NCBI RefSeq assembly: GCF_003050785.1
Contig: NZ_QAOH01000009.1
Coordinates: 1-64,000, forward strand
DNA length: 64,000 nt
Reading direction: 5' to 3'
DNA from: Celeribacter persicus
GTDB taxonomy: Bacteria; Pseudomonadota; Alphaproteobacteria; Rhodobacterales; Rhodobacteraceae
Position 1 is the first letter of the stretch, and every line of letters starts with the position of its first letter. A program made the translations under genes and the position numbers. Below, piece by piece: positions 37,556-59,486 of this stretch. The notes below the pieces were generated by a model that did not search any database, had not been told where the DNA came from, and was given only the letters and a program-made list of their open reading frames with translations.

Positions 37556-37718
37556 GATGAATCCCTTTCGTTAATCACTGATCCATTGCGGAGATTTTGC
37601 GGGCCATGCCATATCGCGACAGAGGTGTCAAAGGCTTTTCCCTCAAAAAACCGTAAAGACGATGGTCTGTACGGTGGACGCAGGGTATGGGAAGAAAAAC
37701 CGGGGTGAAAGGGCCAAA

Positions 37719-38414
37719 ATGCGCGAAATCCGATTGCAGGGGGAACCGCCCGTTTCCGTGACGCTGCGCCGCTCTGCGCGGGCGCGGCGACTGTCTTTGC
37801 GCGTGTCGCGGCTCGATGGACGTGTGACGCTTTCGATGCCGCAGCGTTTGCCGGAGGCAGAAGCGATCGCCTTTGTGCAGGAAAAGCAGGACTGGATCCG
37901 CAAGCACCTTGCAGGGCGCAGCCCGGATCAGGTGCCGGTGTTTGGCGCGCGCCTGCCGTTTCTCGGTCAGGAGGTGGAGATCGTGCCGGGGCAGGGGCGG
38001 CGCGCGCAGCTCAGGGAAGGGGCGTTACAGGTGCCGGGCGGGCCGGAGAGCGTGGTGGCGCGTGTGCGGGCCTTCCTCAAGTTGGAGGCGCAGATGCGGC
38101 TGCGTGAGGCCTCTGATCGCTATGCTGGCGCGCTTGGTGTCGGTTATGGGCGGATCATGCTGCGCGATCCGCGTTCGCGCTGGGGGTCCTGCACCTCTGC
38201 GGGCAATCTCATGTATTCCTGGCGCTTGGTCATGGCGCCGCCCGAGGTGCTCGATTACGTTGCGGCGCATGAGATGGCGCACCGGCTGGAAATGAATCAT
38301 TCGGAGCGGTTCTGGGCGCATGTGGCGCGGCTGTGTCCCGGCCATAAGGTGCACCGAAACTGGTTGCGCACCGAAGGCGAGCGCCTGCATGGTTGGCGCT
38401 TCGAGACGGATTGA
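37719..38414 (+). CDS. YgjP-like zinc metallopeptidase domain protein
   Basis: This 231-residue protein has the M48-related YgjP/DUF45 domain with zinc motif YVAAHEMAHRLEMNHSERFW (HExxH plus a later His) and the preceding RSRWGSCTSAGNLMYSWRLV. Proteins of this group are predicted metal-dependent hydrolases with undefined targets. I start it at 37719 because the product then begins MREIRLQG, as usual. It is followed by the GntR gene after 31 bases. Confidence 0.88.
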   Translation: MREIRLQGEPPVSVTLRRSARARRLSLRVSRLDGRVTLSMPQRLPEAEAIAFVQEKQDWIRKHLAGRSPDQVPVFGARLPFLGQEVEIVPGQGRRAQLREGALQVPGGPESVVARVRAFLKLEAQMRLREASDRYAGALGVGYGRIMLRDPRSRWGSCTSAGNLMYSWRLVMAPPEVLDYVAAHEMAHRLEMNHSERFWAHVARLCPGHKVHRNWLRTEGERLHGWRFETD

Positions 38415-38427
38415 CCTTGCCTGTGTT

Positions 38428-38437
38428 TGTGATCACA
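38428..38437. promoter_or_regulatory. TGTGATCACA palindrome before the GntR gene
   Basis: This perfect 10-base palindrome ends 8 bases before the GntR start codon. The same sequence occurs in pairs upstream of sucC and sdhC. It is a plausible autoregulatory operator. Confidence 0.55.
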
Positions 38438-38445
38438 TTGCGCCC

Positions 38446-39099
38446 ATGATCCATCCGTCTCCCCGCCCGACCGACCATTCCACCGCTGCGCATGATCGTG
38501 TATACCGGGCGCTGCGTACCCGTATCATGCATGGCGAATTTCGCCCCGGAGAGGCACTTACGCTGCGTGGTATCGGCAAGATGTTCGACGTTTCCATGAC
38601 GCCCGCGCGCGAGGCGGTGCGGCGGCTGGTGGCGGATGGCGGGTTGAACCTCTCGGCCTCGGGACGCGTGACGACGCCGGAGCTTTCGAACGAGCGGATC
38701 GAAGAACTGGCCGCGATCCGGGCGCTGATCGAACCGGAACTGGCCTCACGGGCCCTGCCACGGGCGCATATTGCGCTGATCGACCGATTACAGGCGATCA
38801 ACAGCACGATTGCCGAGGCGGTCGCGAAACACGATGACGTGGGCTATATTCGCACCAATCTCGAATTTCACCGCACGCTCTACCTGCGGGCGCAGGCGCC
38901 TGCCATGCTGGCGTTGACGGAGACCGTCTGGCTGCAACTTGGGCCGACCATGCGGGCGCTTTATGCGCGGCTGAACCGCACGGAAGTGCCACATAATCAC
39001 CGTCTGATCGTGGCGGCGCTCCGGGCGGGGGATGAGCCGGGGTTACGCCTTGCGGTGCGCTCGGACGTGACCCAGGGGCTGCGGATGCTGGCGGTCTGA
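38446..39099 (+). CDS. GntR-family regulator with FCD domain
   Basis: This 217-residue regulator has an N-terminal winged helix (about 10-75; RVYRALRTRIMHGEFRPGEA, MFDVSMTPAREAVRRLVADG) and a C-terminal FadR/FCD helical domain. That domain has metal-ligand candidates in LEFHRTLY and NHRLIVAAL. FCD domains usually bind small carboxylates. The start at 38446 is the normal GntR N-terminus. Its upstream palindrome recurs at the sucCD and sdh promoters, so regulation of TCA-cycle genes is inferred. Confidence 0.9.
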   Translation: MIHPSPRPTDHSTAAHDRVYRALRTRIMHGEFRPGEALTLRGIGKMFDVSMTPAREAVRRLVADGGLNLSASGRVTTPELSNERIEELAAIRALIEPELASRALPRAHIALIDRLQAINSTIAEAVAKHDDVGYIRTNLEFHRTLYLRAQAPAMLALTETVWLQLGPTMRALYARLNRTEVPHNHRLIVAALRAGDEPGLRLAVRSDVTQGLRMLAV

Positions 39100-40015: not shown

Positions 40016-41410
40016 TCAGGCGTGGATCGCGCCGTCACCACAGGCCAGAGCCGCCTCGCGCACCGCTTCGGAGAAGGTCGGGTGGGCGTGGCAGGTGAGC
40101 GCGATGTCCTGCGCCGAGGCTCCGAATTCCATCGCCACACAGATCTCGTGGATCAGATCGCCGGCGCCCGGGCCGATGATGTGACAACCGAGCACGCGGT
40201 CGGTGTCTTTATCGACGATCAGCTTCACGAAGCCCTCACCCTGATGCACGGCTTTGGCGCGGGCGTTGCCCATGAAGGAGAATTTGCCGACCTTGATGGC
40301 GCGGCCTTCTTCCTTGAGCCGCTGCTCGGTCTTGCCGACGGAGGCGACTTCCGGCGTGGTGTAGATCACGCCGGGGATCACGTCGTAGTTCACGTGGCCA
40401 TGTTTGCCTGCCAGCACCTCAGCGACGGCCATGCCTTCGTCTTCGGCCTTGTGCGCCAGCATCGGGCCCACGATGGCGTCGCCGATGGCGTAGATGCCCG
40501 GCACGTTGGTGGCCCAATGCGCGTCGGTCTTGATCTGGCCGCGCGGGGTAAACTCGACGCCGAGGGCTTCGAGCCCCAGACCGTCGGTGAAGGGTTTGCG
40601 GCCGGTGGCGACGAGAACGACGTCGGCATCGAGCGTGTGCTCGCTGTCGTCTTTCTTCAGCTTGTAGTTCACTTTTGCCTTGGTTTTCGTGGCTTCAACG
40701 CCCGACACGGCAGCGCCGAGGATGAAATTGAAGCCTTGCTTGCCAAGGATTTTCTGGAACTGGCGCTGAACCTCGCCGTCCATGCCGGGGGTGATGAAAT
40801 CCATGTATTCCACCACGGTCACTTCGGCACCGAGACGGGCGTAGACCGACCCGAGTTCCAGCCCGATCACACCCGCGCCGATGACGACCATTTTCTTCGG
40901 GATTTTCGGCAGCGACAGAGCGCCAGTCGAGTCCACCACGATGCCCTTGTCATTGTCGACCTCAACACCCGGCAGGGCGGTCGGGACAGACCCGGAAGCG
41001 ACGATGATGTTCTTGGCCTCATGGACCTCTTCGCCGACTTTCACCTTGCCGACAGCCGGGATGGACCCCCAGCCCTTGAGCCAGGCGATCTTGTTCTTTT
41101 TGAACAGGAATTCAATGCCGCCGGTGTTCTGGCCGATGACGTCGTCCTTGTATTTCTTCATCTGGTCCCAGTCGACGGACGGGGATTTGCCCTTGAGACC
41201 CATGTCGGCGAAATTATGCTCTGCCTCATGTAGCATGTGCGAGGCGTGCAGCAGCGCTTTCGAGGGGATACAGCCGACGTTGAGGCAGGTGCCGCCCAGC
41301 GTTTCGCGGCCTTCGACCACGGCGGTCTTGAGGCCCAGTTGGGCGCAGCGGATGGCGCAGACGTAGCCGCCGGGGCCAGCGCCGATGATGATGACGTCAT
41401 AAGATGCCAT
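40016..41410 (-). CDS. lpdA: Dihydrolipoyl dehydrogenase (E3)
   Basis: This 464-residue flavoprotein reoxidises the lipoyl arm of the 2-oxoglutarate dehydrogenase complex (and possibly others) with NAD. It has the FAD motif [15 protein letters not shown], redox-active Cys42 and Cys47 in [16 protein letters not shown] motif [20 protein letters not shown] and the C-terminal His-Glu pair in [15 protein letters not shown] start it at 41410; the upstream open frame runs antisense-like through another gene. It ends the odh operon. Confidence 0.96.
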
Positions 41411-41442
41411 GGTCTTCTCCTTGGTCAGTATCTTGAGCCCGC

Positions 41443-41838
41443 TCAGATCAGCGCGGCGATGAACAGAATGGCGCAGCAGGTCATGGCGAGCATCCAGATG
41501 TAGCTCCGCCACGGCTGCCAGCCGAGGGCATAGGCGGGCACGTAGAGCACCCTTGCGATCAGATAGACCCAGGCCATGCCGAGGGTGAGGGCACTCGACT
41601 GATCCGTCAGGTGGATCAGGAACACGCCCGCGGCGAAGAAGGGGAACATCTGAATGTGATTGTCGTAGGCGCGCAGCATCCGGCTCGTGGTCTTGCGCAT
41701 CTCGCGGCTTGGCGCCCGGTCGCGGGGCGAGGTGGTGTAGCCCGGCCCCAGATCGACATTCGCCATGTAAGAGGCCACCACGAATTGCGCGATGTGCAAA
41801 AGGCCTGCGAGGGCGAGGAGGGTGAGGAGGGGGGTCAT
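41443..41838 (-). CDS. MAPEG family membrane protein
   Basis: This 131-residue protein has four predicted membrane helices (about 3-24, 57-80, 83-104 and 110-130). The MAPEG motif is in the loop before helix 2: [25 protein letters not shown] proteins conjugate glutathione or reduce peroxides in eukaryotes; bacterial substrates are largely unknown. It lies between a small unknown gene and lpdA inside the odh operon, an arrangement I associate with Rhodobacteraceae. Confidence 0.88.
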
Positions 41839-42272
41839 TCCAAGCCATCCGCCAGAGCTATGAACAGCGACCGCAGAGGGCGCAACGACTCTGAATTAGG
41901 CGCTAAAACCCATTGTGCGCACCCTTGCCCAATTTCGTTTAATAGATTGGGAGACGAGTCTTGGAGGGTCTCATAGAAATCCATAATCGGGACCCGTTCG
42001 CGAATTTCTTCGTTGCCGAAGCCTAGTGCTTTGAGAGCAAAAATCGCAGCATTTTCTTTGTTTGCTGTCGCCAAGCGGATGAAGTGATCGCAAAAAACTA
42101 GGGCGAAGACACCACTTGCAGCGATGTATCCGTCACTGGACTGGTCTCCCTTGAAGGCCGCGCTGACATCGGCCAAGAGCATTAGTGCCCCTTCGGCGCA
42201 CCAATGGTCCGGTTCATTCGATGAGAAGTGTTCAACTCCCACCTCCTCGAAAGCCGAAGCCAGCGCATCCAT
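41835..42272 (-). CDS. Hypothetical protein inside the 2-oxoglutarate dehydrogenase operon
   Basis: I do not recognise this 145-residue protein. It is acidic and probably all-helical, without signal peptide or membrane helix; residues 20-45 and 55-100 look like amphipathic helices. It starts four bases after the odhB stop and overlaps the MAPEG start by four bases, so it is almost certainly translated from the odh mRNA. Its DNA is clearly more AT-rich than its neighbours, which suggests acquisition. No function is proposed. Confidence 0.7.
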
Positions 42273-42276
42273 AGTC

Positions 42277-43782
<1,506 letters not shown>

Positions 43783-43786
43783 GTGA

Positions 43787-46747
43787 TTACCCTTCGATAT
43801 TGAGCGCATCGTTCACGAGCGCCGTTTGTTGTGCTTTGTGCTGAGACGCCAGACCCGTGGCGGGCGAGGCGGAGGCGGCACGTCCGGCATAGACCGGGCG
43901 CGTGTGCTTGGCGCCGATGCGCGTCAGCACCCATTCGATATTCGGCTCGACAAAGGTCCAGCCGCCCTGATTCTTCGGCTCTTCCTGACACCAGACGATC
44001 TCGGCCTGTTTGAAGCGTTCGAGTTCCTTGACCATGGAGAGGGCCGGGAACGGGTAGAACTGTTCGAGGCGCAGGATATAGGTGTCGTCCTTGCCAGCGG
44101 CATCGCGGGCCTCCAGAAGGTCGTAATAGACCTTGCCGGAGCAGATCACGACGCGCTTGATGTCCTTGTCCGCCTTGAGTTTCAGCTCGGATTTCGCGGT
44201 GCCGAAATTGGCATCGGCATCGTCCCAGAGAACGCGGTGGAAGGAAGAGCCTTCGAGGAAATCCTTCGCGGTCGAGGTCGCCAACTTGTGACGCAGAAGC
44301 GATTTCGGTGTCATCAGCACGAGCGGTTTGCGGTAGGAGCGGTGCAACTGGCGACGCAGGATATGGAAGTAGTTCGCGGGCGTCGTGCAGTTCGCGACGA
44401 TCCAGTTGTCCTCGGCGGACATTTGCAGGAAACGCTCCAGACGGGCGGAGGAGTGCTCCGGGCCCTGACCTTCGAATCCGTGCGGCAGAAGCATCACGAG
44501 ACCGGACATCCGCAGCCATTTGCGTTCGCCCGAGGAGATGAACTGGTCGAACATGATCTGCGCGCCGTTGGCGAAGTCGCCGAACTGGGCTTCCCACATC
44601 ACGAGCGCATTCGGTTCGGCCAGCGAGTAGCCATATTCGAACCCGAGCACGGCATATTCCGAGAGCATCGAGTCGATGACCTCGTAATGCGCTTGGCCCT
44701 CCCGGATATGGTTGAGCGGGTAGTAGCGCTCTTCGGATTTCTGGTCGATCAGGCCGGAGTGGCGCTGGGAGAAGGTGCCGCGGGTCGAATCCTGACCGGC
44801 GAGACGTACCGGATAGCCTTCGGACAGCAACGAGCCGAACGCTAGCGCTTCACCGGTCGCCCAGTCGAACCCTTCACCGGTTTCGAACATATGCGCCTTG
44901 GCTTCGAGTTGACGGGCCACGGTTTTGTGGATGTTGAACTCTTCCGGCGCGGTGCTCAAAGCACGCCCCACCTGAGCCATGGTCTCTTCCGAAATGGCGG
45001 TCTGGCCGCGCTGATACTCTTCGCCCTCTTTGTCGAGGTGCGACCAGCGACCGTCGAGCCAGTCGGCCTTGTTCGGTTTGAACGTCTTCCCGGCTTCGAA
45101 CTCTTCATTCAAAAGCGCCTGGAACGCGGCTTTCATGTCCTCGATCTCGCCCTCGGGGATGAGACCATCGGCCACGAGGCGTTCGGTGTAAAGCTGAAGC
45201 GTGGTCTTGTGCCGCTTGATGTTGGTGTACATCTGCGGGTTGGTGAACATCGGCTCGTCGCCTTCGTTGTGACCGAAGCGGCGGTAGCAGAAGATGTCGA
45301 TGACCACATCCTTGTGGAATTTCTGACGGAACTCGGTTGCCACTTTCGCGGCGTGCACCACGGCCTCCGGATCGTCGCCGTTGACGTGGAAGATCGGGGC
45401 TTCCACCATCAGCGCGATGTCGGTCGGGTAGGGCGAGGAACGCGAAAAGTGCGGCGCGGTGGTGAAACCGATCTGGTTATTCACCACGATGTGGATTGTG
45501 CCCCCGGTGCGGTGACCGCGCAGGCCTGAGAGGCCGAAGCATTCCGCGACCACACCCTGACCGGCGAAGGCCGCGTCACCATGGAGCAGCACCGGAATAA
45601 CCGTGTGACGGTCCTTATCGTTGTTCTGATCGGTCTTGGCGCGCGCCTTGCCGAGCACGACCGGGTTCACCGCCTCAAGGTGCGAGGGGTTGGCGGTCAA
45701 GCTGAGGTGGACCTTGTTGCCGTCGAACTCACGGTCGGAGGAGGCGCCAAGGTGATATTTCACGTCACCGGAACCGTCCACGTCCTCGGGTTTGAAGGAG
45801 CCGCCCTGGAATTCGTTGAAGATCGCGCGGTAGGGTTTCGACAGAACGTTGGCGAGCACGGACAGGCGGCCACGGTGGGGCATACCGATCACGACCTCTT
45901 TCGCGCCGAGGCTGCCGCCGCGTTTGATGATCTGTTCCATGGCGGGGATCAGCGCTTCGCCACCGTCGAGGCCGAAGCGTTTGGTGCCCATGTATTTCAC
46001 ATGAAGGAATTTCTCGAAGCCCTCGGCCTCGACCAGCTTGTTCAGGATGGCGCGGCGGCCGTTCTTGGTGAACTGAATTTCCTTGCCGAAACCTTCGATG
46101 CGCTCTTTCAGCCAGCCCGCTTCTTCCGGGTTGGAGATGTGCATGTATTGCAGCGCGAAAGTGCCACAATAGGTGCGCTTGAGCACGTCGAGAATCTGAC
46201 GCATGGAGGCGTGGGTCAGCCCAAGCACATTGTCGATGAAGATCGGGCGATCCATGTCGGCTTCGGTAAAACCGTAGGAGCGCGGATCGAGTTCCGGGTG
46301 CGGTTCCGTGGCATGCATTTTCAGCGGATCGAGATCGGCGATCAGATGGCCGCGAATACGATAGGCGCGGATGATCATGATCGCGCGTACCGAGTCGAGC
46401 ACAGCGCGTTTGACCTGATCCTCGGAGACGGCAACGCCCTTCTCGACGGCCTTTTCCTTGATCTTCTTCTCGGCGGCGACCGGTTCGGCCCATTGACCGT
46501 CGAGCGCGTGGGTCAGGTCGTCATTCGGCACCGGTGGCCAGTCCATGCGCGCCCAGGAAGGTCCCGCCGCTTCTGCGGTGACATCGTTCGCGGCATCGCC
46601 CAGGGATTGAAAGAATTCCGCCCAGGATGCATCGACCGACGCGGGGTCCTGTACGTAATTCGCGTAGACCTGTTCGAGGTATTCCGCGTTATGCCCCTGC
46701 ATGAAGGAAGAGGCGTGAAAAATGTCGTTCGGGGATTGGTCGTTCAT
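43787..46747 (-). CDS. odhA: 2-oxoglutarate dehydrogenase E1
   Basis: This 986-residue thiamine diphosphate enzyme decarboxylates 2-oxoglutarate and succinylates the E2 lipoyl arm. It shows the E1o N-terminus ([20 protein letters not shown]), [20 protein letters not shown], the TPP/metal region [19 protein letters not shown] with [10 protein letters not shown], and [13 protein letters not shown]. The ATG at 46747 has AAGG 8 bases upstream; an ATG two codons earlier has too short a spacing. It precedes odhB in the operon. Confidence 0.95.
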
Positions 46748-46812
46748 CGTCATGACCTTGCTTGGGGTGCGTTTCCGTTTAGTGGCAGGTACGCGTCGCC
46801 TTATGTGGGTAT

Positions 46813-46842
46813 GCCTGCGCCCTTCTCTCAAAGGGCGCAGGC
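46813..46842. other. 10-base-pair hairpin between sucD and odhA
   Basis: GCCTGCGCCC and GGGCGCAGGC are perfectly complementary around a 10-base loop in the 137-base gap. No U-tract follows on the reverse strand. It could be a processing or attenuation element that separates sucCD from odhAB expression. Confidence 0.5.
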
Positions 46843-46884: not shown

Positions 46885-47772
46885 TCAGCCCTTGGCAATC
46901 GCCGCCTGCACAGCTTCGCCAAGAGTGGCGGGGCTGTCGGCGACGACGATGCCTGCGGATTTCATCGCTTCGATCTTTGATTCCGCATCGCCTTTGCCAC
47001 CGGCGACGATGGCGCCTGCGTGGCCCATGCGGCGGCCCGGAGGGGCGGTGCGACCGGCGATGAAACCGGCAACCGGCTTCCAGCGGCCTTTTTTCTTTTG
47101 TTCGGCGAGGAACTCGGCGGCTTCTTCTTCGGCAGAACCGCCGATCTCACCGATCATGATGATCGACTGGGTTTCCGGATCGTCGAGGAACATGTCGAGG
47201 ACGTCGATGTGCTCGGTGCCTTTGATCGGGTCGCCGCCGATGCCCACGGCGGTGGACTGGCCAAGGCCCAGATCGGAGGTCTGTTTCACAGCCTCGTAGG
47301 TCAGTGTGCCGGAGCGGGAGACCACACCGACGGAACCGCGACGGTGGATGTGACCCGGCATGATGCCGATTTTGCAGGCGTCCGGGGTGATGACACCCGG
47401 GCAGTTCGGGCCGATCAGGCGCGAGTTGCTGTCCATCAGGGCGCGTTTCACCTTCATCATGTCGAGCACCGGAATGCCCTCGGTGATGCAGATGATCAGT
47501 TCCATCTCGGCGTCGATGGCCTCAAGGATCGAATCCGCTGCGAAGGGCGGCGGCACGTAGATCACGGAAGCATTGGCTTCGGTTTTCGCCTTGGCTTCGT
47601 GCACGGAGTTGAAGACCGGCAGGCCGAGGTGTTCAGCGCCACCTTTGCCCGGGGTCACGCCGCCGACCATTTTGGTGCCGTAAGCGATGGCTTGTTCCGA
47701 GTGGAAGGTGCCCTGCGAGCCGGTGAAGCCCTGACAGATGACTTTGGTGTTTTCGTTAACGAGAATTGCCAT
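46885..47772 (-). CDS. sucD: Succinyl-CoA synthetase alpha subunit
   Basis: This 295-residue subunit carries the phospho-histidine and CoA site of the enzyme that makes ATP or GTP from succinyl-CoA. It has [20 protein letters not shown] at the N-terminus, [11 protein letters not shown], and the phosphohistidine segment [20 protein letters not shown]. It starts five bases after sucC. Confidence 0.96.
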
Positions 47773-47777
47773 GTCTG

Positions 47778-48971
47778 TTAGCCCTTCACTGCTTTCACGA
47801 TTTTCTGGGCGCCGTCTTTGAGATCGTCCGCCGCGATCACGTCGAGGCCGGAGTTGTTGATGATCTCTTTGCCGAGCTCCACGTTGGTGCCTTCGAGACG
47901 GACGACGAGCGGAACCTTGAGGCCCACTTCTTTCACGGCCGCGATCACGCCTTCGGCGATGATATCGCAGCGCATGATGCCGCCGAAGATGTTCACGAGG
48001 ATGCCTTTAACGTTCTCGTCGGAGGTGATGATCTTGAACGCTTCGGTCACTTTCTCTTTGGTCGCACCGCCGCCCACGTCGAGGAAGTTAGCGGGTTCTG
48101 CGCCGTAGAGTTTGATGATGTCCATGGTGGCCATCGCGAGACCCGCGCCGTTCACCATGCAGCCGATCTCACCGTCAAGCGCGATGTAGTTCAGGTCGTG
48201 CTGGGAGGCGGCGAGTTCTTTCGGGTCTTCTTCGGTCTCGTCGCGCAGGCCGACGATGTCCGGGTGACGGTAGAGCGCGTTGCCGTCGAAGCCCGCTTTA
48301 CAGTCGAGACATTTCAGGTCGCCCGTGTCGGTCACGATCAGCGGGTTGATTTCCAGCATCTCCATGTCCTTGTCGACGAAGAGACGGTAGAGGTTCGAAA
48401 TCAGCTGCGCACATTGCTTGATCTGCTTGCCTTCGAGGCCCAGAGCGAATGCGACGCGGCGGCCGTGGAAGCCCTGAAGGCCGGTCGCGGGGTCGATGGA
48501 GAAGGAGAGGATTTTTTCCGGGGTTTTCTCGGCGACTTCCTCGATGTCCATGCCGCCCTCGGTCGAGGCTACGATGGAGACGCGGGAGGACTGGCGGTCG
48601 ACGAGCAGGGCGAGGTACAGTTCGCGTTCGATGTCGGAGCCGTCTTCGATGTAGATGCGGTTCACCTGTTTTCCAGCGGGGCCGGTCTGGTGCGTGACCA
48701 GCGTGTGACCGAGCATGCGGTTGGCTTCTTCCGCTGCTTCTTCGACGGATTTGGCAAGGCGCACGCCGCCTTTTTCACCTGCGCCGGATTCCTTGAAAGA
48801 GCCTTTGCCGCGGCCACCGGCGTGGATTTGCGCTTTCACGACCCACAGCGGACCGTCGAGCTCGCCCGCCGCGGTTTTCGCGTCGGCTGCGTTGAGAACG
48901 ACACGCCCGTCGGAGACCGGGGCACCGTATTCCTTGAGAAGGGCTTTCGCCTGATACTCGTGGATGTTCAT
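47778..48971 (-). CDS. sucC: Succinyl-CoA synthetase beta subunit
   Basis: This 397-residue ATP-grasp subunit binds the nucleotide. The N-terminus [19 protein letters not shown], the nucleotide loop [14 protein letters not shown] and [20 protein letters not shown] are diagnostic. It opens the sucCD-odhAB-lpdA cluster. Its upstream region contains two TGTGATCACA palindromes. Confidence 0.96.
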
Positions 48972-49311
48972 TAGAGATATCCTCTCCCTGGTTCGATTGG
49001 TCCCGTGTATGCCACCGGAAACAGGTCATAAGAAATGGTTTTTTATGTGTTCGGCGGTAAAACGCGCGTGTTTTCGTTTTTTGTGATCACAGCAAAGTTT
49101 TGTGTGATCACAAATGGCGAGAATCGCTTTCGGAGAATCTGGCGCGGGGGGTGAAACCTTTATTCACGAGGCCATTCTCTCCGCAAGGAGGTCAGGAACA
49201 GATGTGTCCTGACTGTGACGGATTGTCAGTTTCTGCAATGTGATCTCGCCTCGCAGGCCGCTCCGGGTATAAACCGGGGATCAAGAGATTCGATGAAGAG
49301 GACCCTTTCCC
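48972..49311. other. Divergent regulatory region between sucC and an outer membrane protein gene
   Basis: These 340 bases contain the promoters of sucC (leftward) and of the outer membrane protein gene (rightward). Two TGTGATCACA palindromes (listed separately) and the inverted repeat GTCAGGA-N9-TCCTGAC (49191-49213) are present. No gene is supported. Confidence 0.5.
49082..49112. promoter_or_regulatory. Paired TGTGATCACA operators upstream of sucC
   Basis: Perfect palindromes at 49082-49091 and 49103-49112 have centres 21 bases apart, two helical turns, about 110-140 bases upstream of the sucC start. The same sequence precedes the GntR gene and sdhC. Cooperative binding of a dimeric GntR-type regulator is inferred. 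Confidence 0.6.
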
Positions 49312-49968
49312 ATGCAAGTTCTTGCAAAGGCGACACTCGCTGGCGTTGCGCTGATGGCGTCGACCGCTTTGGCCTCCGCAGGTGATTTCAGCCTGTCCGT
49401 CTACGGTGGCTATCAAACCGCGCCGCACAGCGGCGTATCGGGCAACGACGGTGTGGCCGATTTCGATTTCACTACGGGTTGGGAAGGCAAGAGCTTTGCG
49501 ATGCCGCCCTATTACGGTGTTCGTGGCACCTGGTGGGTTCGGGACAATTTCGGCTGGATCGCGGATTTCACCCACAGCAAGGTTTATGCCGACGAAGACG
49601 ATATGGCGGCGAACGGATTTTCGACGCTGGAATTCACCGACGGGCTGAACAACCTGACCGTGGGGCCGATCTGGCGCTGGCCGGGGCTTTGGAACAACAT
49701 CACCCCCTATGCGAGCGTTTCCGCAGGGATCATCATCCCGCATGTCGAGGTGGTGACCGCGAACACCGACACGATCGAATATCAGATCGCCGGGCCGACC
49801 GTCGCGTTGGTGCTGGGTGCGAGCTATGAGTTGAACGACCGCTGGGATCTGTTCACCGAGTACAAGGGCACCTACAGCCAGCTCGACGTTGATCTCGATG
49901 GCGGCGGCAATCTCGAAAGCGACATCATCACCAATGCGCTGAACTTCGGTGTGACTTATAAGTTCTGA
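49312..49968 (+). CDS. Outer membrane beta-barrel protein (lipid A oxidase-like)
   Basis: This 218-residue protein has a signal peptide (about 1-23, cleavage near ASAGD). Alternating amphipathic strands and a terminal Phe (FGVTYKF) are typical of outer membrane barrels. Characteristic stretches are LSVYGGYQTAPHSGVSG, WEGKSFAMPPYYGVRGTWW and LEFTDGLNNLTVGPIWRWP. I associate these, with moderate certainty, with barrels annotated as lipid A oxidase (LpxQ-like) in Rhodobacteraceae. It is divergent from sucC and ends at a terminator. Confidence 0.75.
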   Translation: MQVLAKATLAGVALMASTALASAGDFSLSVYGGYQTAPHSGVSGNDGVADFDFTTGWEGKSFAMPPYYGVRGTWWVRDNFGWIADFTHSKVYADEDDMAANGFSTLEFTDGLNNLTVGPIWRWPGLWNNITPYASVSAGIIIPHVEVVTANTDTIEYQIAGPTVALVLGASYELNDRWDLFTEYKGTYSQLDVDLDGGGNLESDIITNALNFGVTYKF

Positions 49969-53736: not shown

Positions 53737-54783
53737 GTGAATGCAGGTCGCGTGAAAACCAATCCGGGACGATTTTTCGAAGACTACACCATCGGGCAGG
53801 TGATCGAACATGCCGTGCCGCGCACTGTGTCGGGCGGTGAGCGCGCGCTTTATCATGCGCTTTATCCGGCGCGTCATGCGCTTTATTCCTCGGATGAGTT
53901 TGCCGAAAACTGCGGGCTGGAGAAAAGCCCGCTGGACGATCTGATTGCCTTTCATGTGGTCTTCGGTAAAACCGTTCCGGATATTTCGCTCAACGCGGTG
54001 GCGAACCTTGGCTATGCCGAGGGGCGGTGGCTGAAACCGGTCTATCCCGGCGATACGCTGAGATCGGTGTCCGAAGTGATCGGGCTGAAGCAGAATTCCA
54101 ATGGCAAATCCGGCGTGGTCTATGTGCGCACGTGGGGACTCAATCAATGGGATGAACCGGTACTGGAATATGTTCGTTGGGTGATGGTGCGCAAACGCGA
54201 TCTGGATGCGCCGGCGCCGGAGACCGTGATTCCGGAGCTGTCGAAAGTTGTTGCACCAGAGGATCTGGTGATCCCCGAGGGACTCGATTTCCTTCAGTAC
54301 AATTTCACATTGGCCGGTGAAGAGCATCGCTGGGCGGATTACGAGATCGGTGAAAAGATCGACCATGTGGACGGGGTGACCATCGAGGAGGCCGAGCACA
54401 TGATGGCCACGCGGCTCTGGCAGAACACGGCCAAGGTGCATTTCGATGCCACCAACCGCGAGGATGGCAAACGGCTGATCTATGGCGGGCATGTGATTTC
54501 CATGGCGCGGGCTTTGTCGTTCAACGGGCTTGCCAATGCGCAGATGATCGTGGGGCTCAATGGTGGGGCGCATGCCAATCCTTGTTTTGTCGGCGATACC
54601 GTGCGGGCCTATACCGAGGTGCTCGACAAGGCGGAGACCTCTGCCCCCGGTGTCGGCGCGCTGCGTTTGCGCTTGGTGGCCCATAAACACGGCGCTCCGG
54701 CGTTCGCCTACAAAACGGAAGAGGGCAAATATCACCCCGATGTTCTGCTCGATCTGGATTACTGGGCGGTGGTGCCGCTCTGA
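53737..54783 (+). CDS. mch: Mesaconyl-CoA hydratase
   Basis: This 348-residue enzyme with two MaoC-like hotdog domains interconverts mesaconyl-CoA and beta-methylmalyl-CoA in the ethylmalonyl-CoA pathway for acetate assimilation. The first domain starts GRFFEDYTIGQVIEHAVPRT; the second begins WADYEIGEKIDHVDGVTIEE and includes IYGGHVISMARALSFNGLAN. The length matches the Rhodobacter enzyme (about 343). It closes the mcl2-nnrU-DUF1737-mch set. The translation begins with GTG at 53737. Confidence 0.9.
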   Translation: MNAGRVKTNPGRFFEDYTIGQVIEHAVPRTVSGGERALYHALYPARHALYSSDEFAENCGLEKSPLDDLIAFHVVFGKTVPDISLNAVANLGYAEGRWLKPVYPGDTLRSVSEVIGLKQNSNGKSGVVYVRTWGLNQWDEPVLEYVRWVMVRKRDLDAPAPETVIPELSKVVAPEDLVIPEGLDFLQYNFTLAGEEHRWADYEIGEKIDHVDGVTIEEAEHMMATRLWQNTAKVHFDATNREDGKRLIYGGHVISMARALSFNGLANAQMIVGLNGGAHANPCFVGDTVRAYTEVLDKAETSAPGVGALRLRLVAHKHGAPAFAYKTEEGKYHPDVLLDLDYWAVVPL

Positions 54784-54905
54784 TTCATTCGAATTATTGA
54801 ATTTGTGATCGCAAATTCGGGCCGTACGTGACGCGTGCGGCCTTTTTCGGTGTAAATTCGAGACGGTTGTGTTGAGTAAATCCTATGAAAACCCTAAGAA
54901 AACCC

Positions 54906-55002
54906 GATAGCGCTAAATATGTGATCACACTTTCAGGCTTGTGATCACAATGCGCCTTTTGGGCGACATTAATCGCCGAAAAGAGACCTTGTTAGCGCTA
55001 TC
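54906..55002. promoter_or_regulatory. Inverted pair GATAGCGCTAA / TTAGCGCTATC flanking the sdh operators
   Basis: GATAGCGCTAA at 54906-54916 recurs as its exact complement TTAGCGCTATC at 54992-55002, with centres about 85 bases apart. Each has the central palindrome TAGCGCTA typical of LacI-family sites. The pair brackets the two TGTGATCACA sites, which would suit DNA looping by a second regulator. Confidence 0.5.
54920..54949. promoter_or_regulatory. Paired TGTGATCACA operators upstream of sdhC
   Basis: Perfect palindromes at 54920-54929 and 54940-54949 have centres 20 bases apart. They match the copies before sucC and before the GntR gene, and are likely sites of that regulator. Confidence 0.6.
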
Positions 55003-55085
55003 AGTAGGCGAGTGGGTGGTGACTCGGGGATAGAAAAGAGTATTACGGACCCAGCTTACAGCATCACTCGTGAAAGGACGTCACC

Positions 55086-55484
55086 ATGGCTGATGTGAAC
55101 CGCGGCAACCGGCCGCTTTCTCCCTTCATGCTCGGAAAATACTATCGCCCGCAGATGACTTCGATCTCGTCGATCATGGTGCGGATCACTGGAATCGCCT
55201 CTCTGGGAACCGTGTTCCTGGCTGTGTGCTGGTTGTTGGCTGCCGCGTCTTCCCCGAGCGTTTTCGCTGCTTTCAACAGCGTTTTCTCCTCGATCTTCGG
55301 TGAGATACTGATGCTCGCCGCCGCCTGGGCGCTCTGGTATCACCTGCTTGGTCGTCTGCGTCACGTGGTCTGGGACTTCGGCTACTGCCTCGATGTGCCG
55401 ACCTCCGAAAAGATGGGCTGGGGCATGTTTATCGGTGCAACGGTGCTGACGGTCCTGACCGCCATTCTCTTTCTGATTTTCTGA
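55086..55484 (+). CDS. sdhC: Succinate dehydrogenase cytochrome b556 subunit
   Basis: This 132-residue membrane anchor has three helices (about 30-52, 68-90 and 110-130). It has the family N-terminus NRPLSPFMLGKYYRPQMTSI, SIMVRITGIAS (quinone site Ser and Arg) and WYHLLGRLRHVVWDFGY with the heme-ligand His. It is the first gene of sdhCDAB. Confidence 0.94.
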   Translation: MADVNRGNRPLSPFMLGKYYRPQMTSISSIMVRITGIASLGTVFLAVCWLLAAASSPSVFAAFNSVFSSIFGEILMLAAAWALWYHLLGRLRHVVWDFGYCLDVPTSEKMGWGMFIGATVLTVLTAILFLIF

Positions 55485-55494
55485 GGGGCCGGAT

Positions 55495-55869
55495 ATGAAT
55501 TTTCTGACTGACCGCAAACGTGCAACGGGTCTTGGCGCCGGGGGCTCCGGTGTTGCTCATCATTGGCTGACCATTGCCACGTCGATCTCGCTGATCGTTC
55601 TCGTGCCGTTCTTCATCTTTGTGTTCGGCAGCGCCGTGGGTCGCGAACAGGCCGATGTCTATGCCTATTTCAGCAACCCCTTCATCGCGATTGCGATGGC
55701 GCTGAGCCTTGTGGGCTGTGTGATCCACCTGAAGACTGAAGTGGACGAAGCCGTTGAGGACTATATCGGGGGCATCAAGCGCAAACTGACGCTCATTGCC
55801 GTGGCGGGCTTCTGCTACGCTCTGATTTTGAGCGGTCTCTTCGCCATTTTGAAACTCGCGATCCTCTGA
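55495..55869 (+). CDS. sdhD: Succinate dehydrogenase membrane anchor subunit
   Basis: This 124-residue second anchor has three helices and begins [22 protein letters not shown], as in alphaproteobacterial SdhD. The heme and quinone contacts are expected in the helix with [17 protein letters not shown]. It lies ten bases after sdhC and 20 before sdhA. Confidence 0.93.
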
Positions 55870-55889: not shown

Positions 55890-57698
55890 ATGACAGCAGC
55901 ATACGAATACGAAACACACGAATATGACGTCGTTGTCGTGGGCGCCGGCGGGTCCGGTCTGCGTGCGACGCTGGGCATGGCCGAACAGGGCCTGCGCACG
56001 GCCTGTGTGACCAAGGTCTTCCCGACGCGCTCCCACACGGTGGCCGCTCAGGGAGGGATCGCCGCCTCGCTCTCCAACATGGGGCCGGACAACTGGCAGT
56101 GGCACATGTACGACACCGTGAAGGGCTCCGACTGGCTCGGCGACACCGACGCGATGGAATACCTCGCGCGGGAAGCGCCCAAGGCCGTGTATGAGCTTGA
56201 GCACTACGGTGTGCCCTTCTCCCGGACAGAAGAAGGCAAGATCTACCAGCGCCCGTTTGGTGGCCACACCACCGAATTCGGGGAAGGTCCGCCCGTGCAG
56301 CGCACCTGTGCCGCCGCGGACCGCACCGGCCATGCCATCCTGCACACGCTTTACGGCCAGTCCGTGAAAAACAACGCCGAATTCTACATCGAATATTTCG
56401 CCATCGACCTGATCATGTCGGATGACGGTGTGTGCCAAGGCGTTCTGTGCTGGAAACTCGATGACGGAACTTTCCACCTCTTCTCCGCGAAGATGGTCGT
56501 TCTGGCGACCGGCGGCTATGGCCGCGCCTTCTTCTCCGCGACCTCGGCTCACACCTGCACCGGCGACGGTGGCGGTATGGTGGCCCGTGCGGGTCTCGCG
56601 CTTCAGGATATGGAATTCGTTCAGTTCCACCCGACCGGCATCTACGGCTCCGGCTGTCTGATCACCGAGGGTGCGCGCGGCGAAGGCGGGTATCTGACCA
56701 ACTCCGAAGGCGAGCGTTTCATGGAACGCTATGCCCCGACCTATAAAGACCTCGCGCCGCGTGACTACGTGTCCCGCTCGATGACGATGGAAATCCGCGA
56801 AGGTCGTGGTGTGGGCGAACATAAAGACCACATCTTCCTGAACCTCAGCCACCTTCCGGCCGAGGCGCTGGCGGAACGTCTTCCGGGCATTTCCGAGTCT
56901 GCGAAAATCTTCGCCGGTGTGGATGTAACCAAAGAGCCGATCCCGGTGCTGCCGACGGTGCACTACAACATGGGTGGTATCCCGACCAACTATCACGGTG
57001 AGGTTCTGAACCCGACGGCGGACAATCCGACCGCTGTGGTGCCGGGCCTGATGGCCGTGGGTGAGGCGGGTTGTGCCTCTGTGCATGGGGCGAACCGTCT
57101 CGGCTCCAACTCGCTCATTGACCTCGTGGTCTTTGGCCGTGCCGCCGCGATCCGCGCCGGTCAGGTCGTCGATCCGAAAGCGCCGAACCCGGAGCTGAAT
57201 ATGGCGTCCGTGGAGAAGGCTTTCGACCGGTTCGACAGCCTGCGCTACGCCAAGGGTGCGATCCCGACCGCCGAGTTGCGGCTTGAGATGCAGCGCACGA
57301 TGCAGACCGATGCCGCCGTGTTCCGGACCGACAAGTCCCTTAAAGAGGGGGTCGAGAAGATGACCATCGTGGCGGGCAAGATGGGCGATCTGGGCGTGAC
57401 CGACCGGTCGCTGATCTGGAACTCGGACCTGATGGAAACGCTCGAACTGGCGAACCTGATGCCGAACGCTCTCGCGACCATTCATGGCGCCGAAGCCCGG
57501 AAAGAATCCCGTGGCGCGCATGCCCATGAAGATTACCCGGAACGCGACGATAAGAACTGGCGGATTCACACCATCAGCCGTGTCGATGGCACCAATGTCG
57601 AACTCAGCTATCGTCCGATCATCGAGGCCCCGCTGACCACCGAAGAAGAAGGTGGCATCAGCCTCAAGAAGATCGCGCCGAAAGCGAGGACGTTCTAA
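55890..57698 (+). CDS. sdhA: Succinate dehydrogenase flavoprotein subunit
   Basis: This 602-residue catalytic subunit oxidises succinate with covalent FAD. It has the FAD motif [20 protein letters not shown] and the flavinylated His in [40 protein letters not shown] follows, and the C-terminal part has the capping-domain arginines. Its stop is followed not by sdhB but by a hairpin and a pyruvyl transferase gene. Confidence 0.97.
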
Positions 57699-57716: not shown

Positions 57717-57744
57717 TTGTGGTCGCTCTGGGGAGCGACCACAA
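57717..57744. other. Perfect 12-base-pair hairpin after sdhA
   Basis: TTGTGGTCGCTC and GAGCGACCACAA enclose a TGGG tetraloop, 18 bases after the sdhA stop and 20 bases before the next start. There is no U-tract on the plus strand. It probably protects the sdhCDA mRNA end or attenuates transcription into the inserted gene. Confidence 0.6.
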
Positions 57745-57764
57745 AACTGATCGGGAGCCATGTG

Positions 57765-58559
57765 ATGCCGTTGAGAACCTATTGGTGGGCTGCTACCCCG
57801 AACTTCGGCGACAGGATTACCGAGGATGTGGTGGCGTATGTCTCCGGTCAGGAGATCAAGCGTGAAAATGCTGCAAATGCAGACATTTTCGCGATCGGCA
57901 GTATCATGCTCGATGTCCGGCGCGGGATCCGGCGCGGGAATGAAGGACAACCTTGGATCTGGGGTTCCGGTGCGTTGCGCCCGATGAATACCGATTTCGT
58001 CGATCATATCCGCGTTGCAGCGGTGCGGGGACCGATCACGCGTGAAATTCTCGGTCTGAAGACGGATGTATTCGGAGATCCGGGGGTGCTGATGTCGCTG
58101 GTTCTCGACGAGAAAATCGCGAAGACGGGCAGGATCGGGGTCATTCCACATTTCACGAAAATCTCGGAAACCGCCGAACGACTGGCCGGGCTTGGCGATG
58201 AAGTGATGATTATCGACCCGGCACAGGAAAATCATCTTGATGTGGTGCGCCAGATTGCAGGCTGCGAGGCGGTATTTTCGTCGAGCCTGCACGGTCTGAT
58301 CGTCGCGGATGCCTTTGGTGTTCCGAACGTCTGGCTCGATCCTGATGGTAACCATGACTGTGCGCGGCTGAAATTTTACGATTATGCCGCAGGGGTCGGG
58401 CGCGTCCTGCCGTTGCCGATCCCGGTGGAGCAGATCGAACATGTGCTGGAAACGGGCGTCGCCCCGATCTCATATGCGGATGGTGTGAAACAGGCACAGG
58501 TGCGGCTTGTGGAGGCTTTTCCGGAAGAGCATAAATGTAAGAGGGCAATCTATGCCTGA
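57765..58559 (+). CDS. Polysaccharide pyruvyl transferase family protein
   Basis: This 264-residue protein has the PS_pyruv_trans fold: PNFGDRITEDVVAYVSG near the N-terminus, VRGPITREILGLKTDVFGDP in the middle and SSSLHGLIVADAFGVPNVWL near the C-terminus. Family enzymes attach pyruvate ketals to exopolysaccharide or cell wall sugars, using phosphoenolpyruvate. The ATG at 57765 follows CGGGAG. It separates sdhA from sdhB on the same strand. Moonlighting in the sdh operon is not expected, so this is probably an insertion. Confidence 0.82.
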   Translation: MPLRTYWWAATPNFGDRITEDVVAYVSGQEIKRENAANADIFAIGSIMLDVRRGIRRGNEGQPWIWGSGALRPMNTDFVDHIRVAAVRGPITREILGLKTDVFGDPGVLMSLVLDEKIAKTGRIGVIPHFTKISETAERLAGLGDEVMIIDPAQENHLDVVRQIAGCEAVFSSSLHGLIVADAFGVPNVWLDPDGNHDCARLKFYDYAAGVGRVLPLPIPVEQIEHVLETGVAPISYADGVKQAQVRLVEAFPEEHKCKRAIYA

Positions 58560-58706: not shown

Positions 58707-59486
58707 ATGGTTCAGTTTAACCTTCCCAAAAATTCCAAGATCGTGACGGGCAAGACCTGGCCGAAGCCTGAGGGCGCGACCAATGTCCGCAAGTTCCAGA
58801 TTTATCGCTGGAACCCGGATGACGAGAAGAACCCGTCGGTGGACACCTATTTCCTCGACATGGACAAATGCGGTCCGATGGTTCTCGACGCGCTGATCAA
58901 GATCAAGAATGAGATCGACCCGACGCTGACCTTCCGCCGGTCCTGTCGCGAAGGCATCTGTGGCTCCTGCGCAATGAATATCGACGGGATCAACACGCTG
59001 GCCTGTATCTACGGTCTCGACGAGATCAAGGGCGACGTGCGCATCTTCCCGCTGCCGCACATGCCGGTGGTGAAAGACCTGATCCCGGATCTGACGCATT
59101 TCTATGCCCAGCACGCCTCGATCATGCCCTGGCTTGAGACCAAGACCAACCGTCCGGAAAAAGAATGGCGTCAGTCCATCGAGGATCGCAAGAAACTCGA
59201 CGGTCTTTATGAATGCGTGATGTGCGCCAGCTGCTCGACCTCCTGCCCGAGCTACTGGTGGAACGGCGACAAGTATCTTGGACCGGCCGCACTCCTGCAC
59301 GCCTACCGCTGGATCATCGACTCGCGCGACGAGGCCACCGGCGAGCGTCTTGATGATCTGGAAGACAGCTTCAAGCTTTACCGCTGCCACACCATCATGA
59401 ACTGTGCGAAAACCTGCCCGAAGGGTCTGAACCCGGCGGCCGCAATCGCGCATATCAAGAAGATGATGCTCGAACGGGCTCACTAA
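58707..59486 (+). CDS. sdhB: Succinate dehydrogenase iron-sulfur subunit
   Basis: This 259-residue subunit has the [2Fe-2S] motif [16 protein letters not shown] and the clusters' cysteines in [16 protein letters not shown] and [17 protein letters not shown]. It passes electrons from SdhA to the quinone site. It has its own AGGGGAACAGG ribosome site and a 147-base gap after the pyruvyl transferase gene, in which I see no other gene. That gap may hold a separate promoter. Confidence 0.96.

Follow-up and report, generated by a model that had tools for sequence, protein, structure and literature searches.

Analysis of the distribution of a short palindrome in a 64-kb stretch of the Celeribacter persicus genome (the whole stretch of 64,000 nucleotides, referred to as the window) and in related genomes makes it very probable that a GntR-type gene located therein represents the Celeribacter counterpart of AkgR, with the 10-mer TGTGATCACA as its binding site, tandem sites serving activation at the suc and sdh genes and a single site serving repression at its own gene. 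The sites, their placement, the co-occurrence of gene and sites, the pitch of paired sites and the spacing to promoter-like elements were computed directly, and protein binding, activation of suc and sdh, repression of the own gene and metabolite control via the FCD domain were inferred. The observation on which the earlier note was based is confirmed, and the system itself is already known in kind.

The akgR-like gene (38446–39099, plus strand) encodes a regulator of 217 amino acids. The Pfam domains GntR (1.5e-13) and FCD (4.1e-19) both scored above cut-off, in line with a GntR/FCD-type transcription factor. Its start codon was set at the ATG at 38446 by alignment with relatives; a longer, mechanically called open reading frame starts at 38320, runs back into the upstream gene and would cover the operator described below. 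This upstream gene (37662–38414, plus strand, start codon not fixed) encodes a ygjP-like metallopeptidase (Pfam YgjP-like, 1.7e-52 for 37722–38411). Among the best 80 named relatives of the regulator, the closest belong to Celeribacter, with 99% identity in C. ethanolicus NH195. A second close akgR copy was not found in the own genome, identity falling to 35% for the match ranking second. The nearest solved structure by sequence is McbR (YncC) from a different organism, E. coli (PDB 4p9f, E 6.6e-21, residues 19–212). Members of the metal-binding FCD subgroup use Asp, His, His and His as ligands. At the positions that appear to correspond by spacing, the akgR product features Asn138, His142, His185 and Asp207, which are invariant in 16 aligned sequences, and a sensor domain equipped with these residues may bind its ligand differently.

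Exact copies of TGTGATCACA were found at five positions of the window (38428, 49082, 49103, 54920 and 54940), compared to 0.05 expected copies per window (sd 0.22; fewer than five copies in each of 100 dinucleotide shuffles). One copy is located before the start codon of the GntR gene, two before sucC and two before sdhC. The same palindrome had been noticed at these three places in the earlier note, and the shuffles now separate its occurrence in the window from random frequency. The further claim that it is restricted to intergenic DNA holds for the window (5/5 copies according to the gene calls used here) and fails for the genome, since one copy resides inside hfq. In total, the genome (4.3 Mb, 94 contigs) contains seven exact copies versus approximately 2.4 expected from the base composition of the window, the two outside the window being located at C7:81994 (within the hfq coding sequence) and C34:9779. 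Exact copies are concentrated in the window. When two mismatches were permitted, 102 places were found in the own genome versus 14 for the backward control. Furthermore, the degenerate copy previously reported upstream of sdhC is present as TTGTGATCGCAA at 54803–54814, corresponding to TGTGATCGCA at 54804–54813 upstream of the sdhC pair (palindromes and inverted repeats are given without strand). Its conservation is not clear: 8-mers with at most one mismatch and at most 300 bp upstream were observed in 9 of 31 other sdhC regions and in 4 of 34 sucC regions, at scattered distances.

The operator at the start of the regulator gene (TGTGATCACA, 38428–38437) sits 8 nt before the akgR ATG, in the 31 bp that separate this codon (38446) from the ygjP stop (38414). 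A putative -35 element of akgR, TTGACC (38411–38416, plus strand), overlaps the ygjP stop codon and shows conserved spacing in relatives. Assuming a 17-bp spacer, a weak -10 position, CACATT (38434–38439, plus strand), would overlap the operator. For comparison, the best 80 named relatives, several of them from the same genera, were considered. Near their akgR start, 70 carry the 8-mer GTGATCAC, 64 carry the full 10-mer and ten lack the 8-mer; in L072, which lacks it, two 10-mers with a 21-bp pitch are located about 9.6 kb away. The distance from TTGA[CT] to GTGATCAC is 18 nt in 58 of the 70 relatives, 19 in 6, 17 in 4, 20 in 1 and 10 in 1, i.e., a near-fixed 17–20 nt in 69/70 (determined without a shuffled control), and the first in-frame start codon follows 8–10 nt after the 8-mer in 57/70. 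Moreover, of the 133 family genomes possessing the gene, 80 show the compound pattern TTGAC-N12-14-GTGATCAC-N2-20-ATG at the start of akgR and 53 lack its exact form. By coordinates, 17 further matches are located elsewhere, including one at a contig end in G027, a genome in which a different contig end truncates akgR; this match probably belongs to the akgR start. The placement of the own-start site 18 nt after a conserved TTGA[CT] suggests autorepression.

Upstream of sucC, the proximal (49082–49091) and distal (49103–49112) exact copies of TGTGATCACA follow each other with a 21-bp pitch between the sucC start (48971, minus strand) and a minus-strand open reading frame at 49192–49743. The genes arranged behind them, all on the minus strand, are sucC encoding the succinyl-CoA ligase beta subunit (47778–48971; NCBIfam PRK00696, 1.1e-177), sucD (46885–47772; NCBIfam PRK05678, 1.3e-140), sucA encoding the 2-oxoglutarate dehydrogenase E1 component (43787–46831, start codon not fixed; NCBIfam PRK09404, E 0), sucB (42277–43809; NCBIfam PRK05704, 6.4e-232) and lpd encoding dihydrolipoyl dehydrogenase (40016–41848; TIGR01350, 3.2e-168). 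The lpd reading frame contains about 148 residues ahead of its dihydrolipoyl dehydrogenase match, and mdh lies beyond sucC. In the sucC regions of the family, conservation past the site flank is highest in columns 48 and 49 (79% T each). In 17 of the 34 regions, the best-scoring -35-like block is found at a distance of 46–48 nt past the proximal site, and its positions are scattered among the other regions. This consensus was picked after seeing the sequences, the spacings lack a shuffled control, and a sucC core promoter at 46–48 nt is accordingly a weak prediction.

At the sdhC locus, the distal (54920–54929) and proximal (54940–54949) exact copies show a 20-bp pitch and are placed between a mesaconyl-CoA hydratase-like gene (ending at 54783) and sdhC (55086). 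They are followed by a putative -35 element, GTGACT (55019–55024), a putative -10 element, TATTAC (55041–55046), and the genes sdhC (55086–55484; Pfam Sdh_cyt, 1.6e-21), sdhD (55495–55869; Pfam Sdh_cyt, 8.3e-06), sdhA (55890–57698; TIGR01816, 3.2e-279) and sdhB (58707–59486; Pfam Fer2_3, 5.4e-33), all on the plus strand. A polysaccharide pyruvyl transferase-like gene (57717–58559) is inserted between sdhA and sdhB. Within 32 sdhC regions, screened without a shuffled control, the element [GT]TGAC[ATG] was found 57–60 nt after the proximal site in 24, 48 nt in two and 70 nt in the window, and was missing in five; these distances (48, 57–60, 70) differ by about one helical turn. From the suc and sdh spacings, the proximal site would be located about 90–110 bp and the distal site about 110–130 bp upstream of the transcription start, distances compatible with activation from an upstream position. 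The position of the sdhC pair far upstream of the -35-like element suggests activation. Between the operator pair and the sdhC promoter, a CceR-like inverted repeat, TGTTAGCGCTATCA (54990–55003), was read by eye and deviates by one base from the published form. CceR is presumably identical to RSP_1663 of Rhodobacter sphaeroides. For RSP_1663, regulation of sdh was predicted with the motif [A/G/T]GTT N6-8 AAC[A/C/T] (PMC4344238). The vicinity of such a repeat to the AkgR pair suggests joint control of sdh.

In order to follow the paired arrangement across the family, 149 genomes, one per genus, were screened with the pattern GTGATCAC-N11-15-GTGATCAC, which allows a pitch of 19–23 bp. Tandem pairs were detected in 133 of these genomes and the backward control in none, this control being lenient as it contains CTAG. 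The word CTAG is rare in many bacteria. Summing the counts per genome, 243 pairs were obtained, of which 66 from 35 of the 133 genomes, taken among the pairs listed and including the sucC pair of the window, were examined. They are located before sucC (34 pairs, 97–155 bp upstream), sdhC (31 pairs, 108–192 bp upstream) and fumC (one pair). The scan of related genomes upstream of suc, sdh and the regulator gene, which had been proposed earlier, is in favour of the proposal, with 66/66 examined pairs before one of these three genes and an own-start site in 70/80 of the best named relatives. The pitch is 21 bp in 62 of the examined pairs and 20 bp in four, the latter value also applying to the sdhC pair of the window. 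As only 20 and 21 bp were observed although 19–23 bp were allowed, a pitch of two helical turns appears to be strongly favoured. The fumC case refers to a third tandem pair in G042 (L103:1501–1653), 124 bp before the gene for the class II fumarase, and fumC may be regarded as an occasional member of the predicted regulon.

Presence of the gene and presence of the pair coincide within the family: 130 of the 149 genomes contain both, 13 contain neither, three only the gene and three only the pair (Fisher p 1.8e-13, a statistic that ignores shared ancestry). At the threshold of E 1e-40, 134 genomes showed an AkgR match, and 133 were retained after dropping G054, whose sole match is 37% identical; G033 and G122 (49% identical) were counted as gene-bearing due to the site at their own start. 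When the 16 genomes scored as gene-negative were searched again with relaxed settings, identities did not exceed 37%, except in G109. Among the gene-only genomes, G040 speaks against the proposed reading, since it is 100% complete, encodes an AkgR of 73% identity and is devoid of 10-mers, of pairs and, in the stretch examined near the gene, of 8-mers; G122 (76% complete) possesses the own-start site, and G147 (73% complete) features the one-base variant GCGATCAC at this position. The pair-only genomes G019, G096 and G114 are also devoid of a ygjP match, and a missing contig or assembly gap may account for them, a possibility that fits and is no proof. In the draft genome G109 (97% completeness), akgR is reduced to pieces (62% and 57% identical; L170:1430–2110), which by eye directly follow the apparent end of ygjP. 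Neither TGTGATCACA nor a pair was found in this genome, nor GTGATCAC in the stretch round the pieces; other 8-mers are retained, with one compound match on another contig. Persistence of the motif in genomes without the GntR ortholog, which the earlier note had named as evidence against its reading, was mostly not seen, the exceptions being the three genomes with a pair and no detected gene. The interpretation of the protein as a regulator of the TCA cycle is supported by this co-occurrence and by the placement of the pairs, the idea itself being already known for RSP_0981/AkgR.

Beyond the family, 11 of 385 genomes of the wider class contain a pair, comprising five of the window's family and 6 of 380 others; the backward control matched five times in G222 of this class set. 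AkgR was detected at E 1e-40 in eight class genomes, namely the five family genomes at 1e-104 or better (G170, 1.7e-104) and G253, G456 and G525 at 1e-42 to 1e-44 with 38–42% identity. Pair and weaker AkgR match occur together in G525. The six pair-bearing genomes outside the family are G162, G295, G525, G350, G453 and G507, of which the first three (L156–L158) were looked at. In G295, a member of another family, the GTGATCAC pair precedes a GntR gene whose product is only 26% identical in the matched part (L157:992–1900) and which is followed by a frame that by eye resembles a short-chain dehydrogenase. Since GTGATCAC is also present at other GntR genes (G295, Pseudomonas simiae), the motif alone does not identify AkgR.

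The closest known counterpart is RSP_0981 of R. sphaeroides, which presumably is AkgR. In the work of Imam and colleagues from 2015, AkgR was reportedly shown to activate TCA genes. In PMC4344238, RSP_0981 is described as a GntR protein with predicted control of sucCD, sdh and the 2-oxoglutarate dehydrogenase genes, and PMC6365646 calls AkgR a transcriptional activator whose sites contain GTGATCAC. Family, predicted targets and site core are shared with the Celeribacter gene, and the RSP_0981 gene resides within 20 locus tags of its predicted targets, the Celeribacter gene likewise being close to its own. The two differ in genus and in arrangement, since the RSP numbering places the gene past sdh, whereas the window gene is located on the lpd side of the suc genes. 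For PS417_07240, a GntR-like protein of Pseudomonas simiae with 32% identity to AkgR, GTGATCAC was reported at -47 to -40 of its own gene, but the proposed control concerns a deoxyribonate gene cluster and not the TCA cycle (PMC6365646). The window gene encodes a GntR/FCD protein, is accompanied by five GTGATCAC-containing sites, some of them before suc and sdh genes, and co-occurs with such sites across genomes. As targets, motif and gene neighbourhood agree, it was filed as a putative AkgR member.

Three other explanations were weighed. That the palindromes reflect chance or base composition is regarded as practically negligible: about 2.4 exact 10-mers are expected genome-wide, which would account for the two outside the window, but the excess of five over 0.05 in the window, the pairs in 133 of 149 family genomes against none for a lenient control, their placement before sucC, sdhC or fumC and the mere 6 of 380 pair-bearing genomes outside the family led to its rejection. 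It is also very unlikely that another regulator, e.g., of the CRP/FNR type, binds TGTGATCACA and that the nearby GntR gene is incidental. TGTGA and TCACA are CRP-type half sites, and CRP sites possess a 6-bp spacer between them. A CRP-type site was rejected, as the half sites abut in all five window copies. In R. sphaeroides, NtrC and RSP_1663 are likewise predicted at sdh (PMC4344238), but the pair tracks the GntR gene across genera, a site is located at the start of that very gene, and GTGATCAC was reported for AkgR sites (PMC6365646).

A more substantial objection, though still an unlikely one, is that AkgR binds all sites and activates or barely affects its own promoter, so that negative autoregulation would not occur. 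The -10-like element of the akgR promoter is weak and could need help, and the exact own site is absent in ten of the 80 best named relatives. However, the centre of the akgR operator is located about 13 bp upstream of the inferred transcription start, and proteins bound at such a position usually obstruct polymerase. The sdhC sites precede their inferred start by about 100 bp or more, clearly representing another geometry. The akgR operator is situated past the -35 element and ahead of the start codon, where at most a very short leader would fit, and binding of a dimer at this place should obstruct polymerase. Judged from the position of the site, negative autoregulation of a leaderless akgR mRNA is the inference preferred here.

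According to the proposed mechanism, two AkgR dimers would occupy the tandem palindromes 20–21 bp, i.e., two helical turns, apart. Bound at a considerable distance upstream of both target promoters, that of sucC and that of sdhC, they would stimulate the transcription of the sucCDAB-lpd and sdhCDAB genes. The akgR gene itself would be served by one dimer that sits within the core promoter, downstream of the -35 element and ahead of the start codon, where it would block RNA polymerase and keep the probably leaderless akgR mRNA at a steady level, and some metabolite would exert control through the FCD domain. For the more general formulation, the chances are considered to be even: throughout the family, AkgR would employ one 10-bp palindrome in two opposed, conserved geometries, namely a single own-promoter site for negative feedback on a leaderless mRNA and a rigid two-turn tandem for activation by a dimer of dimers, separated by an integral number of helical turns from the promoters of suc, sdh and, in occasional cases, fumC, with the sites decaying upon loss of the gene.

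Compared to what is known for AkgR, the additions made here, all of them computational, concern how widely gene and sites co-occur, the constancy of pitch and phase, the pair before fumC, the broken-gene genome without sites and the autoregulatory geometry. The results indicate that TCA control of the AkgR type is widespread in the family, gene and tandem site each being found in 133 of 149 genera, and not peculiar to one phototroph. Moreover, pitch, phase and autoregulatory position provide a testable site grammar for the main carbon-oxidising pathway of Rhodobacteraceae.
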